A DNA stretch of 64,000 bases from Acholeplasmataceae bacterium (GTDB taxonomy: Bacteria; Bacillota_I; Bacilli_A; Acholeplasmatales; Acholeplasmataceae). The translations under genes were made by a program, and so were the position numbers. Shown piece after piece: positions 32,995-39,767 of this stretch. Below the pieces are notes generated by a model, which was not told the origin of the DNA, searched no databases, and saw only the letters and a program-made list of their open reading frames with translations. The stretch is from NCBI GenBank assembly GCA_021108415.1, contig JAIOQX010000002.1:496001-560000 (forward strand), read 5' to 3'. How positions within the stretch are numbered: position 1 is the first letter of the stretch; every line of letters begins with the position of its first letter.

Positions 32995-33981
32995 CTATTG
33001 ATAAGCTTTTAGCATCAAATATTGATTTAGAAGTCCAATTGCGACCATATTTTCTAAAACAATACCAACTCTTCTAACGATTGCAACATCATGTCTACCA
33101 TTGATTTCTAATGGTTCAACTTGATTTGTTTCTAAATTGATTGTATCCTGGCTTTTTTGAATACTTGATGTTGGTTTGACAAATACATTAATAGTTAAAT
33201 CATTTCCATTTGAAATACCACCAGTCATACCACCTGAATGATTTGTTTTAGTTTTACCGTTACAATCTAATAAGACATCATTAAATTGTGAACCAAAATA
33301 TTCTACACCACTAAATCCCAATCCAAATTCTACACCTTTAACAGCTGGTACAGAAAATAACAATTGTGAGAGTTCAGAATCTAATTTGTTAAAAAATGGT
33401 TCTCCCATCCCTACGATCATATCAGAAACTGTAAGTTTGATGATACCTCCAATAGATTCGCCTTTTTTGACGACATCTAATAGATATTCATCTAGTTTGT
33501 TCATATCTTTTAATGAACCGACTTGAATAAGTTCACTTTTTATTTTAAAAGGAATCGCCATTTTAGCAATAGATCCCGCCGCAACCAATGCTGCAGTTAG
33601 TCTGCCTGAAAATCTTCCGCCACCTCTATAATCTTGAAATCCTTTATACTTAACTTGGCTTACAAAATCAGCATGTCCTGGTCTTGGATGTGTTTTTAAG
33701 TGTTGATAATCTTTAGATATGACATTTTTATTTTCAATCATGATATGAATAGGTGATCCAGTAGCATATCCGTTAAATACACCACTTGTGATTCTAAACT
33801 TATCATCTTCTTTTCGAGGTGTTGTACCAATTTGTTTAGGTTTTCTTTTTTCCAAATCTTGTTTAATGAGTTCTTCATCAATTTTAGTTCCTGCAGGTAG
33901 TCCATCTAGTACTGCACCGATTGCGTCTTGATGAGACTCACCATATAAAGTGATTTTAAATAAATGTCCATAACTATTCAC
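32995..33981 (-). CDS. aroC: Chorismate synthase
   Basis: This is the last step of the shikimate pathway, converting EPSP to chorismate with reduced flavin. The N-terminus GHLFKITLYGESHQDAIGAV, DYRGGGRFSGRLTA, and the C-terminal GRHDVAIVRR are the three family signatures. At 328 residues it is near the short end of the family. It overlaps aroE by 8 bases and is the last gene of the operon. Confidence 0.97.
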   Translation of the reverse strand: MNSYGHLFKITLYGESHQDAIGAVLDGLPAGTKIDEELIKQDLEKRKPKQIGTTPRKEDDKFRITSGVFNGYATGSPIHIMIENKNVISKDYQHLKTHPRPGHADFVSQVKYKGFQDYRGGGRFSGRLTAALVAAGSIAKMAIPFKIKSELIQVGSLKDMNKLDEYLLDVVKKGESIGGIIKLTVSDMIVGMGEPFFNKLDSELSQLLFSVPAVKGVEFGLGFSGVEYFGSQFNDVLLDCNGKTKTNHSGGMTGGISNGNDLTINVFVKPTSSIQKSQDTINLETNQVEPLEINGRHDVAIVRRVGIVLENMVAIGLLNQYLMLKAYQ

Positions 33982-34750
33982 TGATAATCACATCCTTTAA
34001 TTTTTTGTAAAGCGTCGGTGTGAGTTTAATCTCTTGATCTATCCAAATAGATAAACTCTTTAATGCTTGAATCATCAACATATCCACACCATTAACACCT
34101 TTTTTTGCATAGGTTAGTATTTTAGTTTGAGCAGGTCTATAAACCATATCAATGACAAATTTTTTGTCTACTTGTTTTTTATCTAAAATGCTATATTTAT
34201 GATTTGGATAGGTTCCTATAGGTGTTGCTTGAACATACATATCAACATCGTTTATGTTTAGATCTTTATACATGATGGTTTCAAGATTTACCTTAAGTGC
34301 ATCTCTTGTGACAAACATAGGTTTAGCTTCTAAATCTTTTAAGACATAATATGCTGCTTTAGCTGCACCACCTGTTCCTAAAATATAGACACGTTTATCT
34401 TTAACGATGATTTTATTTCTTTTTATTAAGCCTTCAAATCCTTGATAATCTGTATTATCTCCAACAATTTTATTATGTTTAACATATATTGTATTGACTG
34501 CACCAATACGTTTTGCTTCATCAGTTAATTCATCTACATAATTAATAATTATTTCTTTATAAGGTTTTGTGACATTATATCCATGATATATGCCTTGTTT
34601 TAACTCTGAAATTAACATCTCTAAGCTATTAGGTGTAACATCTATTAAATCATATGTAAATTCTATATTTAAATGTTTACTCATTAACGCAAAAATATTG
34701 GGTGATTTTGAATAACTAATTTGATGTCCAAGAAGTGCAAATCGTTTCAT
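33974..34750 (-). CDS. aroE: Shikimate dehydrogenase
   Basis: This NADPH-dependent enzyme reduces 3-dehydroshikimate to shikimate. The substrate site is seen in GHQISYSKSPNIF, GYNVTKPYK and GDNTDYQGF, with catalytic Lys and Asp present. The nucleotide loop is LGTGGAAKAAYY. The length is 258 residues, slightly short. It overlaps the chorismate mutase gene by 4 bases and aroC by 8. Confidence 0.96.
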   Translation of the reverse strand: MKRFALLGHQISYSKSPNIFALMSKHLNIEFTYDLIDVTPNSLEMLISELKQGIYHGYNVTKPYKEIIINYVDELTDEAKRIGAVNTIYVKHNKIVGDNTDYQGFEGLIKRNKIIVKDKRVYILGTGGAAKAAYYVLKDLEAKPMFVTRDALKVNLETIMYKDLNINDVDMYVQATPIGTYPNHKYSILDKKQVDKKFVIDMVYRPAQTKILTYAKKGVNGVDMLMIQALKSLSIWIDQEIKLTPTLYKKLKDVIISE

Positions 34751-35004
34751 TTCTTTTGATACTCCTTAGAAACGTCCATCAAAGTTTTAATAAATGGTTT
34801 ATAAAATGGCCATAAATCTTCATTACTCAATAATTCTTTTTGTTTATCAATGATTTCTTTTTCTCTTCTAGGATCAAAAATTGGTAAGTGATGTTCCTTT
34901 TTATAAAGTCCAATCAGTCTTGAGACTTCCATGCGTCTTAAAAATAGATCTAACATCTCTTGATCAATTTGATTGATTTGTGCTCTAAGTTCAATCAGTT
35001 TCAT
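34747..35004 (-). CDS. Chorismate mutase, AroQ type
   Basis: A small all-helical chorismate mutase of 85 residues that makes prephenate. Diagnostic residues are in ELRAQINQIDQEMLDLFLRR, then IGLYKK, and DPRREKEIID. The ATG at 35004 is chosen because GGAGG is 8 bases upstream; a longer frame back to 35073 would run through the aroA end without a ribosome-binding site. It overlaps aroA by 14 bases. No fused prephenate dehydratase or ACT domain is present. Confidence 0.92.
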   Translation of the reverse strand: MKLIELRAQINQIDQEMLDLFLRRMEVSRLIGLYKKEHHLPIFDPRREKEIIDKQKELLSNEDLWPFYKPFIKTLMDVSKEYQKK

Positions 35005-36265
35005 CAACAAGTCCTCCAAGTTCTTTAAACACTTCAAAGAAATTTGGATAACTCTTCTCAACAGCGTGAGCATCAGTTATCTTAATATTTCCATCAGCTC
35101 TTAAGCTTGCGATGGCAATCGCCATTGCGATTCTATGATCTTGATATGAACTAAATTCTAGATCACCTCTAAATGAGTCTTGTCCAGTAATCCACGCTTC
35201 ATCTTCAGTGATTTTCATTTCAACACCAAACTTAGTTAAAACTTCATACATCGCAACTAAGCGATCAGATTCTTTGATTTTTAATCGTTTACAATTGATA
35301 AAGTGAGTTTCTCCCTGACTTAATGCTGCTAAGACCATCAAGATTGGACCTAGATCAGGAATTGGATCGATATCAATTGTTATGCCTTTTGTTTCCCTAG
35401 GATGTACGACATATTGTCTTAAATCCTTTTGGAAGTATAAATATCCACCCATCTTTGAGATAATATCTGCAATTTTTTTATCCCCTTGTTTACTTAGAGG
35501 ATCAAGATTTCTTAATTGTAGGGGTAATTTATGTTGATTGATTGTTCCAGCAACCATCCAAAAAGCTGCTTGTGAATAATCACCTTCAACATCTAAAACT
35601 CTTGGTTCATATTTTTGTTTACCTGGAATAAAAATTCGATTATTTTCAAATTCATAAGTAATTCCAAATTTATTTAATGTATCTAGTGTCATATCAACAT
35701 AGCCTTTTGAAGAAAGTGGTGTTGTGATTTCTATAATAGAATCTTTTTTAGCTAATGGCAGGGCAAAAAGTAGACCAGATACAAATTGACTACTTATATC
35801 TCCTCTAACCTTATAATGTCCACCTTCTAATCTACCTTCAATCTCAAGAGGCAGATAGTGCTCATTTTCTAAATGTTTGAATCCTAATCCTTTTTCTAAA
35901 AAGATTGTTTCATAAACATTTAGTGGTCGATCGACTAGCCCACCAGAACCTTTAAAAGTAACTTTTTCTTTTTGAAGCATATAAATCGGAATCATAAATC
36001 TTAATGTAGATCCAGATTCAATACAATCAACTGTATCATTGATTAATTTAAATCCGTGAGCAATAACTTTCTCACCTTCAAATTCTACATTAAGTCCTTT
36101 AAGCGCTTGTTTGGTTGCGGATAAATCATTTGAATCTAATACATTAGAAACGACTGATGTTCCCTTAGCCAAACCTGCTGCAATCACATATCTATGTGAC
36201 AAAGATTTAGAACTAACAACTTTAACAACTCCATTTAATTTTGATGGTTTTATTAATACGTTCAT
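34991..36265 (-). CDS. aroA: EPSP synthase (3-phosphoshikimate 1-carboxyvinyltransferase)
   Basis: Transfers enolpyruvyl from PEP to shikimate 3-phosphate. KVVSSKSLSHRYVIAAGLA holds the N-terminal Lys-Ser substrate contact, GSTLRFMIPI and DYSQAAFWMVAG follow, and DHRIAMAIAIASL is the C-terminal signature. The length of 424 residues is normal. AGGTGA is 7 bases before the ATG; the start shares one base with the aroB stop (TAATG). Confidence 0.97.
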   Translation of the reverse strand: MNVLIKPSKLNGVVKVVSSKSLSHRYVIAAGLAKGTSVVSNVLDSNDLSATKQALKGLNVEFEGEKVIAHGFKLINDTVDCIESGSTLRFMIPIYMLQKEKVTFKGSGGLVDRPLNVYETIFLEKGLGFKHLENEHYLPLEIEGRLEGGHYKVRGDISSQFVSGLLFALPLAKKDSIIEITTPLSSKGYVDMTLDTLNKFGITYEFENNRIFIPGKQKYEPRVLDVEGDYSQAAFWMVAGTINQHKLPLQLRNLDPLSKQGDKKIADIISKMGGYLYFQKDLRQYVVHPRETKGITIDIDPIPDLGPILMVLAALSQGETHFINCKRLKIKESDRLVAMYEVLTKFGVEMKITEDEAWITGQDSFRGDLEFSSYQDHRIAMAIAIASLRADGNIKITDAHAVEKSYPNFFEVFKELGGLVDETD

Positions 36266-37272
36266 TAAAATTCACCTACCTTTATTTGTGTAACTACGCC
36301 TACTCCAATATCTGATAAACAGATGAAATGAAATGCTTCTGCAGTAAATTTCTTATCTGTTTTTATATCCTCTTTTAAATCTTCTGCTTTAAAATATGGT
36401 TTCTTTATGAGCCCATTTAACTCTAAGGTATGTCTGATAGACTCATATAAGTGTTTTGGTGTTAATCCCTTTTTAATGCCAATTTCAAGTGCAATGAGCA
36501 TACCATAACTAATCGCTTCACCATGTTTATATGTTTGATAATTATATTTTTTCTCAATCGCATGACCAAATGTATGACCAAAATTTAAAAGCATTCTCTC
36601 TTTTTGATCAAAAGGATCTTTTAAAACAACATTCCTTTTGACTTCAATTGCCATCAAAATTTCTTTGGTCGTTACTTTTTTAACATCTTTAAAGAAATTA
36701 TATAAATCTTTATTTGCGATTAAACCAGCCTTAATCATTTCAGCTACACCTTGATTATACTCTCTTTTACTTAATGTATCTAAAAAGATTGGATCTATGA
36801 TCACTAGTTTTGGGTGATAAAATGATCCGACTAAATTTTTTCCTTTTGCAAGATCAATACCAACTTTAGATCCAATTGAACTATCAACTTGTGATAATAA
36901 GGTTGTAGGTACTTGGATATAAGGTAGACCTCTATATAGGGTTGCGGCTACAAATCCTGTTAGATCTCCAACCACACCTCCGCCTAAAGCAATTAATAAA
37001 TGATTTCTTTTGATACCTTTATCCATTAATTGATTTATAACATCTAAATATGTTGGAAAGCTTTTTGATTGTTCACCTGCTTTAATAACAACAATATGCA
37101 GATTGAACTCATTTAAAACACCTTTTATAAAATCATGATATAATTCATCAACATTTTCATCTGTCACGACAAAAAGATCTTCATATGTATAAAAAGACTT
37201 GATATGATGTGCTAGTCCTCTTACAGAATTTTTCTCTACAATGATTTCATATTCTGGCATTTTAAGTTTCAT
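36265..37272 (-). CDS. aroB: 3-dehydroquinate synthase
   Basis: Converts DAHP to 3-dehydroquinate with NAD and zinc. GGGVVGDLTGFVAATLYRG, GSKVGIDLAKGKNLVGSF, the NFGHTFGHAIE zinc ligands and HGEAISYGM are all present. The exact start is uncertain: ATGs at 37299, 37272 and 37260 are possible and none has a strong ribosome-binding site. I use 37272, which gives 335 residues and an 11-base overlap with tyrA, consistent with coupled translation. Confidence 0.95.
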   Translation of the reverse strand: MKLKMPEYEIIVEKNSVRGLAHHIKSFYTYEDLFVVTDENVDELYHDFIKGVLNEFNLHIVVIKAGEQSKSFPTYLDVINQLMDKGIKRNHLLIALGGGVVGDLTGFVAATLYRGLPYIQVPTTLLSQVDSSIGSKVGIDLAKGKNLVGSFYHPKLVIIDPIFLDTLSKREYNQGVAEMIKAGLIANKDLYNFFKDVKKVTTKEILMAIEVKRNVVLKDPFDQKERMLLNFGHTFGHAIEKKYNYQTYKHGEAISYGMLIALEIGIKKGLTPKHLYESIRHTLELNGLIKKPYFKAEDLKEDIKTDKKFTAEAFHFICLSDIGVGVVTQIKVGEF

Positions 37273-38092
37273 CAAATAATTTTCTCTTTTCTTTAGCATG
37301 TTTTAAGTATGTTTGAATCGATGATTTATCATCTGTTTGGATAAGATTTTTAAATTTATCTAACTCAAATTCAAAATCTTCTATTTTCTTTATAAGTGCT
37401 TCTTTGTTTTCTAAAAACAATTCAGTCCACATGATTTCATTTATTTTTGCGATTCTAGTTAAATCACGATATGAATCACCTGTTGCCTGTGGAGTTTCTT
37501 TTAAGTGATCTGATTGTACAAGACTTACAGCAATCACATGTGTTAATTGTGATGTAAATGCAATCAATTGGTCATGCGTATGTGCATCAGTTATGGTTAT
37601 TTTACCAAATTTAAGGTCACTTGCAATTGTTTTTAGAATTTTTATATCTTCTTCTTTTGATTTTTCACCTTTTACAATGATAAAATTAGCACCTTTAAAG
37701 ATACGATAATCTCTTGCATCAAAACCTTGGGTCTCTTTTCCTGCCATGGGATGATGTGATGTATAACTAATCTCATCAGGAATGATTGCTTCTATTTCTT
37801 TTGTCATCCAGGCTTTGGTTCCACTGACATCCGTGATCAATTGGCCAGGTCTTAATAAATGTTTATGATTTAATAAAAACTCTATATTGTGTTTAGGATA
37901 TAATGCTAAGATGATCAGGTCAGCTTTTGATAAGTATGAAATATCATTATCTTTTTCTACGATGGATTCTTTGATTGCTAACTCAATTACTGACTCAGTT
38001 CGATTTGTAGCATAAATCTTATGGCCTGCTTTTTTTAATCCTTGAGCATAAGATGCACCAATCAAACCTAATCCAACGATAAATATGTTCAT
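37262..38092 (-). CDS. tyrA: Prephenate dehydrogenase
   Basis: The 276-residue enzyme makes 4-hydroxyphenylpyruvate for tyrosine. The N-terminal NAD loop is IVGLGLIGASYAQGL, followed by SYTSHHPMAGKETQGFDA with the catalytic His. LTHVIAVSLVQ and GDSYRDLTRIAKIN are in the helical C-terminal dimer domain. No ACT regulatory domain follows. It overlaps the DAHP synthase gene by 4 bases. Confidence 0.93.
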   Translation of the reverse strand: MNIFIVGLGLIGASYAQGLKKAGHKIYATNRTESVIELAIKESIVEKDNDISYLSKADLIILALYPKHNIEFLLNHKHLLRPGQLITDVSGTKAWMTKEIEAIIPDEISYTSHHPMAGKETQGFDARDYRIFKGANFIIVKGEKSKEEDIKILKTIASDLKFGKITITDAHTHDQLIAFTSQLTHVIAVSLVQSDHLKETPQATGDSYRDLTRIAKINEIMWTELFLENKEALIKKIEDFEFELDKFKNLIQTDDKSSIQTYLKHAKEKRKLFDET

Positions 38093-39108
38093 CTAAAGTC
38101 TTTTCCTAATAAATCTGATAATTCTTTTAATCGATCAACCATTTGTAAATACTTTTTAGGTTTTAATGATTGTGCACCATCACTTAAAGCATGTTCAGGT
38201 TCGTGATGTACCTCAACGATTAATCCATCTGCCCCAACAGCAAGACTAGCTAGAGACAGTTTTTCTATCATAGACCATCTACCTGCTGCATGACTTGGAT
38301 CAACGATAATTGGTAAATGAGATAATTCTTTAATCGCAAGCACAGATGAGATATCTAATGTATTTCTTGTGTATTTTTCAAAGGTTCTAATCCCTCTTTC
38401 ACACATAATTACTTGTTCATTTCCACCACTCATGATATATTCAGCACTCATTAACCATTCTTCAATGGTTGATGATAATCCTCTTTTTAATAAAATAGGT
38501 TTTGTTGATTTTCCTAAAGCTTTCATTAAATCGAAGTTTTGCATGTTTCTTGCACCTACTTGAATAATATCTACATACTCTTCAAATAAAGGTAGAAGAT
38601 CTGCACTAGGAATTTCAGTTACAACCAACAAATCAAACTCGTCTCCTATTTTTCTTAAGATCTTTAATCCTTCTTCTTTTAATCCTTGAAATGCATAAGG
38701 TGAAGTTCTAGGTTTATATGCACCACCTCTTAAGATATGGGCACCTGATTGTTTCACAGTTTTTGCAATCGTTCTTAATTGTTCTTCTGACTCAACAGAG
38801 CATGGTCCAGACATCATCACAAATTGATCAGATCCAATCTCTATACCATTTTTAAATTTAATAACCGTATTTTCTTTTTTAAAACTTCTTGAAGCTTTCT
38901 TAAATGGTGTCGATACCCTTGTAACCTCATCAACGCCTTCAAATGCATATAAATCTTCTGGTTCAAAAGTTGAAGTGTCTCCAATAATCCCAAAAATATG
39001 AATGAGTTTAGAACTCACATCTCTGATTTCTAAATCTTTACTTACGAGAAATTCTTCTAGTTTTTGGTATTGTTTTTTTGTTGCGTCTTTCTTCATTTTA
39101 ATAATCAT
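38089..39108 (-). CDS. aroF: DAHP synthase, type I-beta with N-terminal ferredoxin-like domain
   Basis: This is the first enzyme of the shikimate pathway, condensing PEP and erythrose 4-phosphate. The catalytic barrel starts near residue 85 with MSGPCSVES. It includes RGGAYKPRTSPYAFQGL, VGARNMQNF, LLKRGLSSTIEEW and IVDPSHAAGR. The first 80 residues form a ferredoxin-like domain, which in Thermotoga binds tyrosine for feedback inhibition. I use the ATG at 39108, because AAAGGGA lies about 10 bases upstream, while AAAGG abuts the ATG at 39135. It is first in the operon and follows a structured leader. Confidence 0.95.
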   Translation of the reverse strand: MIIKMKKDATKKQYQKLEEFLVSKDLEIRDVSSKLIHIFGIIGDTSTFEPEDLYAFEGVDEVTRVSTPFKKASRSFKKENTVIKFKNGIEIGSDQFVMMSGPCSVESEEQLRTIAKTVKQSGAHILRGGAYKPRTSPYAFQGLKEEGLKILRKIGDEFDLLVVTEIPSADLLPLFEEYVDIIQVGARNMQNFDLMKALGKSTKPILLKRGLSSTIEEWLMSAEYIMSGGNEQVIMCERGIRTFEKYTRNTLDISSVLAIKELSHLPIIVDPSHAAGRWSMIEKLSLASLAVGADGLIVEVHHEPEHALSDGAQSLKPKKYLQMVDRLKELSDLLGKDFR

Positions 39109-39140
39109 AGTTTTTTTGTCCCTTTCTTTTTTCATCCTTT

Positions 39141-39180
39141 AAAAATAAAAAATCCCTAAGGAACCCCAAGGATGATTTTT
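39141..39180 (-). terminator. Terminator hairpin in the aroF leader
   Basis: On the minus strand AAAAATC pairs with GATTTTT (39174-39180 with 39148-39154), with inner CCT/AGG pairing and a loop holding GGGGTTCC. T-rich sequence follows. It lies between the leader promoter and aroF, so it would be an attenuator. Confidence 0.7.
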
Positions 39181-39240
39181 GTAATCATGATTTGGCTGTT
39201 CCTTTAAATCCACAAAAAGGAATGCCTTGTTATAGACAAC
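39145..39240 (-). ncRNA. aroF leader RNA with alternative hairpins (candidate attenuator)
   Basis: On the minus strand segment 1, GGCATTCCTTT (39216-39226), pairs with segment 2, AAAGGAACAGCC (39194-39205), to form a hairpin with a 10-base loop. Seven bases of segment 2, AAGGAAC, can instead pair with GTTCCTT (39158-39164) inside the terminator. The two pairings exclude each other, the arrangement of a terminator/antiterminator switch. The leader is under 100 bases and lacks the conserved T-box sequence. Confidence 0.6.
39156..39188 (-). CDS. Possible 10-codon leader ORF upstream of aroF
   Basis: ATG at 39188 opens a frame reading MITKIILGVP and then TAG. AAAGGA lies about 11 bases upstream. 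The frame ends inside the terminator hairpin. There are no aromatic codons, so it is not an ordinary tyrosine- or tryptophan-sensing leader. It may be only chance. Confidence 0.3.
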   Translation of the reverse strand: MITKIILGVP

Positions 39241-39243
39241 CCT

Positions 39244-39271
39244 TATATACTGTATGAATAATAATAGTCAA
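39244..39271 (-). promoter_or_regulatory. Promoter of the aromatic operon
   Basis: On the minus strand TTGACT (39266-39271) and TATATA (39244-39249) are 16 bases apart, upstream of the leader RNA. Confidence 0.7.
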
Positions 39272-39372
39272 CCTTTTTTATTTTTAACATAGAGTGATCT
39301 CCTCATCTATTTGTTGATATAGTATCACAATATATTTAAAAAGACAAGATAAAGCGAAAAAAAACATTTTTT
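39272..39372. other. AT-rich divergent intergenic stretch
   Basis: Between the aromatic-operon promoter and the PadR promoter I see only AT-rich sequence, with a loose GTGAT/ATCAC inverted repeat (39293-39297 and 39323-39327). No gene is supported. Confidence 0.5.
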
Positions 39373-39443: not shown

Positions 39444-39767
39444 ATGATGAATACTCAATTCAAAAAAGGTATTCTTGAGATGTGTATCTTGTATGTTATT
39501 AATGAACAAGACATGTATGGGTTTGAAGTTATTGAACGTCTGGCAAAAGATATAGATGTCAATGAAAACACTGTATATCCCATTTTAAGAAGACTTACCA
39601 GTCAAGATCTATTTACAACCTATCAGAAACAAACTAATTTAGGTGCTCCAAGAAAGTATTATAAAATCACAACACAAGGTCAATCAAAATTAAACCATTC
39701 ATTAGATGAATGGAAAACATTTCTAAATGGTGTATTCCATATCGTAGGAGGAACAAAACATGAATAA
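39444..39767 (+). CDS. PadR-family transcriptional regulator
   Basis: The 107-residue winged-helix repressor starts QFKKGILEMCILYVI and has DMYGFEVIERL, NENTVYPILRRL and GAPRKYYKIT, all typical PadR motifs. It is the short subfamily 2 type, common next to HAAS-domain membrane proteins. AGGAGG precedes two consecutive ATGs (39444 and 39447). The next gene overlaps by 8 bases. Confidence 0.93.
   Translation: MMNTQFKKGILEMCILYVINEQDMYGFEVIERLAKDIDVNENTVYPILRRLTSQDLFTTYQKQTNLGAPRKYYKITTQGQSKLNHSLDEWKTFLNGVFHIVGGTKHE

Follow-up and report, generated by a model that had tools for sequence, protein, structure and literature searches.

Which signal controls the aroF operon of this wall-less bacterium? 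In the 64,000-nucleotide stretch of DNA analysed here (the window), aroF, encoding DAHP synthase, is the first gene of a minus-strand operon with tyrA, aroB and aroA, and its divergent neighbour at 39444 is a PadR-type regulator gene. Between the two genes lie an intrinsic terminator (39147-39173, minus strand) and the hairpins described in an earlier note on this DNA, which had left the sensed signal open. From the comparison of leader sequences we consider it highly probable that the leader of aroF-tyrA-aroB-aroA is a ribosome-mediated transcription attenuator sensing charged Tyr-tRNA via Tyr codons; Tyr, acting by ribosome stalling on these codons, is a strong candidate for the signal.

All features given below are on the minus strand. 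The aroF gene was predicted as the longest ORF at 38092-39135, and its likely start is the ATG at 39108 (38092-39108) rather than 39135, with a conserved protein start MIIKMKK and AGAAAGGGA ahead of it at 39119-39127. The longest-ORF start is probably 27 nt too early (region 39094-39135). A tyrA-like prephenate dehydrogenase gene (37265-38092) is the second gene of the operon, and aroB encoding 3-dehydroquinate synthase (36268-37299) and aroA encoding EPSP synthase (34994-36265) were also found. Three more operon ORFs were read by eye at 32995-35073, which we take to be chorismate mutase, aroE and aroC.

Upstream of the hairpins, we found a conserved promoter-like site composed of the -35 hexamer TTGTCT (39342-39347) and the -10 hexamer TACTAT (39319-39324), the latter with TG ahead as in an extended -10. 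TTGTCT or a close variant, with the spacing of 17 nt, was present in most of the 43 leaders described below, and in the window the -10 hexamer begins 34 nt ahead of the leader start codon. By this site the leader RNA would start near 39312, about 70 nt upstream of the leader in the earlier note. A Shine-Dalgarno sequence GATGAGG (39301-39307) is followed by a short ORF (39243-39290) encoding a leader peptide of 15 residues, MLKIKKVDYYYSYSI, with four Tyr codons and no Phe or Trp codon; a short ORF with its own ribosome-binding site in the leader is what an attenuator of this kind should contain. Since the promoter-like site stands ahead of it, we infer that this ORF is transcribed. The Tyr codons are clustered as TAT TAT TAT TCA TAC (39252-39266), the proposed stall site, and the last of them is located 9 nt ahead of the stop codon.

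This ORF was missed in the earlier note, which had instead named a 10-codon ORF with no aromatic codons (39156-39188). That ORF is not the leader peptide, and it is not conserved: among four same-genus relatives it has two codons in one and runs past the terminator in three. Folding the shorter leader of that note alone misses the true start and mispairs segment 1 (defined below). The promoter of the earlier note was probably TTGACT-16-TATATA, judging by its end coordinate 39271, and these letters belong to the leader-peptide coding sequence, Tyr codons included. Were TTGACT-16-TATATA a second real promoter, its transcript would lack the leader start, fold as 1:2 + 3:4 and read through constitutively. 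TTGACT does match five of the six bases of the -35 consensus, and RNA from segment 1 onward folds in the antiterminated form; however, TTGACT is missing at that place in all four same-genus relatives, most leaders conserve the upstream promoter instead, and the pair was unlisted in the window scan that gave the terminator. We regard a second promoter here as improbable and keep the upstream site as the leader promoter. At codon 8 of the leader peptide (39266-39271) the window has GAC and its sister L002 has GTC (GTTGAC versus GTTGTC). This change weakens the pairing between the leader ORF and segment 3, and it creates the -35-like hexamer TTGACT, which probably misled the earlier note.

Relatives were compared through their AroF genes. 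AroF was searched for in the window's own genome and in 100 relatives, 101 genomes in all, of which 76 had a match. From 83 AroF places, 70 upstream regions were examined, the other 13 being fragments, second pieces or distant copies. A Tyr-rich short ORF with a Shine-Dalgarno-like site just ahead of the hairpins was found in 43 of the 70 regions, window included, and these 43 leaders come from two families. Examples of the relatives' leader peptides are MLKIKKVVYYYSY, MKNMKKAVYYYYAYLI, MFTQKMAGYYYYYYIS and MQTTQIRFSYYYYYI. Every one of the 43 ORFs contains two to six Tyr codons; Tyr accounts for 184 of the 578 non-initiator residues over the 43 peptides, and Trp for none. The last Tyr codon is located 3-12 nt ahead of the stop codon, and segment 1 starts no more than about 6 nt from the stop codon (43/43). 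In the other 27 regions (L042-L046, L048-L065 and L067-L070) aroF had no leader, so the attenuator has a patchy distribution in the order.

The choice of leader ORF in the 43 leaders, and in 18 further ones found by covariance search, favoured or required at least two Tyr codons. A locus-blind rule is free of this bias and covers the 43 and the 27 regions, not the 18: an ORF of 10-25 codons with a Shine-Dalgarno-like site and at least three of one residue within six codons. With Tyr as the residue, the rule picked out 41 of the 43 leaders, versus none of the 27 leaderless aroF regions and 8 of 2,150 dinucleotide shuffles, and on the opposite strands of the 43 it found none. Other residues gave nothing like Tyr in the 43 leaders (Phe 0/43, Trp 0/43, Lys 7/43). 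The operon includes tyrA, and the clustered leader codons specify one of its end products, as expected of an attenuator.

A covariance model (R1) was built from 25 leaders using the part after the peptide, the peptide itself being excluded. Through the search of 160 genomes of the order, 45 matched and ten matches were new; nine of the ten were ahead of aroF, and all nine had a Tyr-rich peptide. The tenth, L135 (G080:C36, E 0.0048), a weak match, turned out to be a T-box-like leader in front of a gene resembling ileS and was left uncounted as a false positive. Extending the search to 395 genomes of the class gave 18 that matched, four of which belong to another order; among 90 genomes from this second order nine matched, each preceding aroF with a Tyr-rich peptide. 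The Tyr-rich peptide was thus present in all 18 further aroF leaders, nine of which come from another order. In the window's own genome R1 had a single match, the aroF leader. R1 misses genus g12 entirely (eight genomes, with leaders identified via the gene), so these covariance counts are lower bounds. The earlier note had proposed a covariance search of its leader; R1 finds further leaders before aroF, and the Rfam scan of the leader gave no family, with no match above the gathering threshold and the E-value matches far below the gathering scores.

That note had also supposed a family it did not recognise. The leader does belong to no Rfam family; it is very probably a published motif, with no unknown aptamer family involved. 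The motif is uORFC-13-1, published in 2021 from Acholeplasma and environmental sequences and, in the part of the report available to us, placed only upstream of aroF (PMC8632094). It was described there from 24 representatives as a uORF just ahead of an intrinsic terminator, with tentative Phe codons in a U-run (PMC8632094). The window leader, too, lies upstream of aroF in an Acholeplasma-type bacterium and before a terminator; the Phe-coding U-run in the uORF, a tentative feature and not part of the definition, is lacking. Compared with the accessible description of uORFC-13-1 (24 representatives, Phe), our set comprises 61 leaders (43 + 18) with a Tyr-rich peptide, nine of them belonging to another order, and the present analysis sets out the alternating pairings.

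If the published proposal holds (PMC8632094), the same leader-peptide attenuator would sense Phe via that U-run, and indeed at least one Phe codon occurs in 29 of the 43 leader peptides. However, the other 14 have none, the window's included; the locus-blind rule finds Tyr in 41 of the 43 leaders and Phe in none; and an ATG-started ORF reading the U-run of segment 2 as UUU is missing in 22 of 43, again with the window included. Which U-run PMC8632094 meant is our own deduction from the accessible text. Phe sensing appears extremely unlikely to us, and the Tyr reading, if right, corrects the published Phe guess for uORFC-13-1.

The RNA after the leader peptide is composed of segments that exchange partners. 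Segment 1, AAGGGUUGUC (39235-39244), shares its first two bases with the last two of the stop codon. Segment 2, GGCAUUCCUUUU (39215-39226), is near-invariant and can pair with segment 1 or 3, and segment 3, AAAGGAACAGCC (39194-39205), with segment 2, 4 or 0. A small hairpin AUGAUU...AAUCAU (39172-39188) forms the tip of the antiterminator, and the 10-codon ORF of the earlier note begins in it. Segment 4, UUGGGGUUCCUU (39158-39169), which makes up the terminator's 5' arm and loop, pairs with segment 3. The terminator itself, AUCCUUGGGGUUCCUUAGGGAU with a U-run, follows the leader ORF and precedes the first gene, as an attenuator requires. Inside the leader ORF, segment 0 (core GGUUG, 39269-39273) is able to base-pair with the CAGCC in segment 3 if the leader is untranslated, and this pairing is weak in the window. 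The pairs 1:2 + 3:4 are mutually exclusive with 2:3 + terminator. The earlier note was right in seeing an attenuator that acts in cis and whose hairpins exclude each other: its leader and intrinsic terminator ahead of aroF are borne out and conserved, and so are the exclusive pairings of AAAGGAAC (39198-39205) with UUCCUUU in segment 2 or with GUUCCUU in the terminator (39158-39164).

Two alignments were made, A1 with 41 of the 43 leaders and A2 with 25 of them, near-duplicates and genera g12, g21 and g15 being omitted from A2. On A2 the paired cells amounted to 93.9% in the antiterminated fold and 94.3% in the terminated fold, versus 36-67% when partners were slid by 1-3 columns. Both pairings are therefore kept in homologous leaders, and the loss of either, which the earlier note had named as evidence against itself, was not observed. 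The covariation score of the terminated fold was reached by none of 500 letter shuffles; the antiterminator, which excludes the terminator as in known attenuators, was weak under these controls, its covariation score being reached by 30/500 and its both-side changes by 61/500. Because segment 2 hardly varies, single-helix covariation within one alignment is weak.

Comparison across divergent genera says more. Pairing at the own locus was better than swaps between genera for 3:4 in 39/43, for 2:3 in 37/43 and for 1:2 in 39/43 leaders. When 3:4 was swapped between genera, the mean changed from -12.6 to -10.3 kcal/mol, and the own pairing was better in 10/10 genus means. Against same-locus windows, the pairings fell within the best 5% for 1:2 in 42/43, for 2:3 in 39/43 and for 3:4 in 32/43, and in the window leader each of the three was the best; against shuffled partners, 3:4 was within the best 5% in only 16/43. 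By eye, segment 3 GGAGAU in genus g14 matches terminator AUCUCC, and AGGACA in L007 (genus g11) matches UGUCCU.

The near-invariance of segment 2, perhaps beyond what pairing demands, and the terminator downstream might also fit a small-molecule riboswitch for Tyr, Phe or chorismate, whose aptamer would be the 1:2 or 2:3 hairpin region. However, an aptamer has no need of a conserved Tyr ORF with a Shine-Dalgarno sequence, the conserved bases are mostly in the alternating helices with loops that differ in length and sequence, and Rfam gave no match at gathering score. We judge a riboswitch very unlikely and return to the Tyr-codon attenuator.

In the mechanism we propose, a ribosome would follow RNA polymerase and translate the 15 codons of the Tyr-rich peptide. 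When Tyr-tRNA is short, it would stall on the Tyr codons, leaving segment 1 (from the stop codon on) outside its footprint, and hairpin 1:2 would persist; with 1:2 standing, segment 3 could pair with segment 4, and transcription would read through into the operon. When Tyr-tRNA is ample, the ribosome would reach the stop codon and cover segment 1, segment 2 would capture segment 3, the terminator would fold and transcription would end. The leader ORF, its Tyr codons, the promoter-like site, the pairings and their conservation are seen in the sequences; stalling, the footprint, the direction of the response and termination in vivo are predictions of this scheme, and the predicted direction, readthrough at Tyr shortage, is that expected of a biosynthetic operon. 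Our confidence in each relay step is lower than in the Tyr-codon attenuator as such. In family f16 of the other order (L130, L136, L138 and L140) the Tyr-rich ORF runs through segment 1, two of these ORFs stopping in the 1:2 loop and two after segment 2. As these are four of the nine other-order leaders, covering of segment 1 by a ribosome at the stop codon cannot be general in this form, and in these four the release step has to be a different one.

Complementarity was also found ahead of segment 1. The leader ORF region and the segment-3 region paired with -18.1 at the own locus versus -12.8 when swapped, and their own pairing beat both kinds of swap in 40/43 leaders; against same-locus windows it was in the best 5% in only 21/43. 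Because this complementarity goes beyond chance in most genera, it suggests that an untranslated leader is in an OFF state through leader-ORF:segment-3 pairing. In the window, 0:3 was no better than swaps (-11.4 versus -11.3 and -11.7), with a rank of 0.38 among same-locus windows.

Two versions of Tyr attenuation differ in the use of this pairing. One follows the classical logic only and is compatible with Tyr sensing, being a sub-version of our explanation: the stalled ribosome would mask segment 0 and free segment 3 for the antiterminator, with 1:2 as a mere pause hairpin. The excess of own-locus pairing over other genera agrees with it, and untranslated RNA was predicted as 0:3 + 1:2 + terminator in most leaders; on the other hand, 0:3 in the window does not exceed its controls, and the version assigns no role to the fact that segment 1 sits by the stop codon in all 43 leaders. 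We find it possible and rather doubtful. The other is a Tyr-specific relay of three states, in which the ribosome position would be read twice by one segment with three partners, and we put it forward tentatively as a plausible reading. Without translation, segment 0 would hold segment 3 and the terminator would form (OFF); a ribosome stalled at the Tyr codons would cover segment 0, 1:2 would stand and 3:4 would antiterminate (ON); with a ribosome at the stop codon, 1:2 would be opened and segment 2 freed to capture segment 3 (OFF). The segment-0 OFF state is offered only within this relay, because 0:3 of the window is no better than its controls.

Each leader was folded with a ribosome footprint set at chosen codons. 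For RNA up to segment 3, the mean pairs were 6.2 in 1:2 and 3.5 in 2:3 with the ribosome mid-Tyr, 0.3 and 7.8 with the ribosome at the stop codon, and 8.7 and 0.8 with no ribosome; in this last state the leader ORF region formed 21.4 pairs with the segment-3 region. In the full leader of the window, the terminator was formed at 0.00 mid-Tyr, 0.41 at the stop codon and 0.25 without a ribosome, and the two predicted OFF states are thus leaky. Among the 43 leaders the terminator was lower mid-Tyr than at the stop codon in 13 and higher in none. In 34 of 43, the full-length terminator exceeded 0.5 at equilibrium even with the ribosome mid-Tyr, so in those leaders the antiterminator has to form before the terminator and then hold; by these folding models, antitermination outside the window's genus must mostly be kinetic.

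The trp, pheA and his attenuators have a well-known segment architecture. In them, as far as the accessible parts of the reports describe, a stall at end-product codons likewise selects the antiterminator over the terminator (trp and pheA, PMC11802643; his, PMC9413887), and his leader-peptide attenuators were reported in other Firmicutes lineages (PMC9413887). Unlike in these systems, the sensed residue here would be Tyr, and an extra hairpin (1:2) downstream of the stop codon seems to pass the arrival of the ribosome on to segment 3. The aroR leader of Corynebacterium glutamicum controls aroF, carries Phe-Tyr-Phe and is described in the available text as responding to Phe, not to Tyr (PMC11802643, PMC4046766). 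It resembles the window leader as a leader-peptide attenuator of a DAHP synthase gene and differs in its Phe-Tyr-Phe, its Phe response and its actinobacterial host. A search of the open-access literature, with most subscription papers outside it, found no Tyr-specific leader-peptide attenuator, aroR being the nearest, and in the open-access literature we found none worked out in Mollicutes. The motif had been seen and the kind of regulation is known; new is the well-supported Tyr signal, and the relay hairpin is unusual, a simple variation on the textbook mechanism. If right, our reading supplies the regulator of the aroF operon of this lineage.

The T-box (RF00230) also senses tRNA charging and acts by transcription attenuation. 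The earlier note had correctly set it aside: no RF00230 match was found at the aroF leader, which is too short for one. This genome has 12 RF00230 matches, and the matches listed lie at other loci; a T-box-rich lineage would then rely on ribosome stalling for one operon. In family f3, the aroF upstream regions L068, L069 and L070 look T-box-like by eye, pointing to tRNA control by another device, and L068 overlaps the RF00230 match G094:C3:190892-191135.
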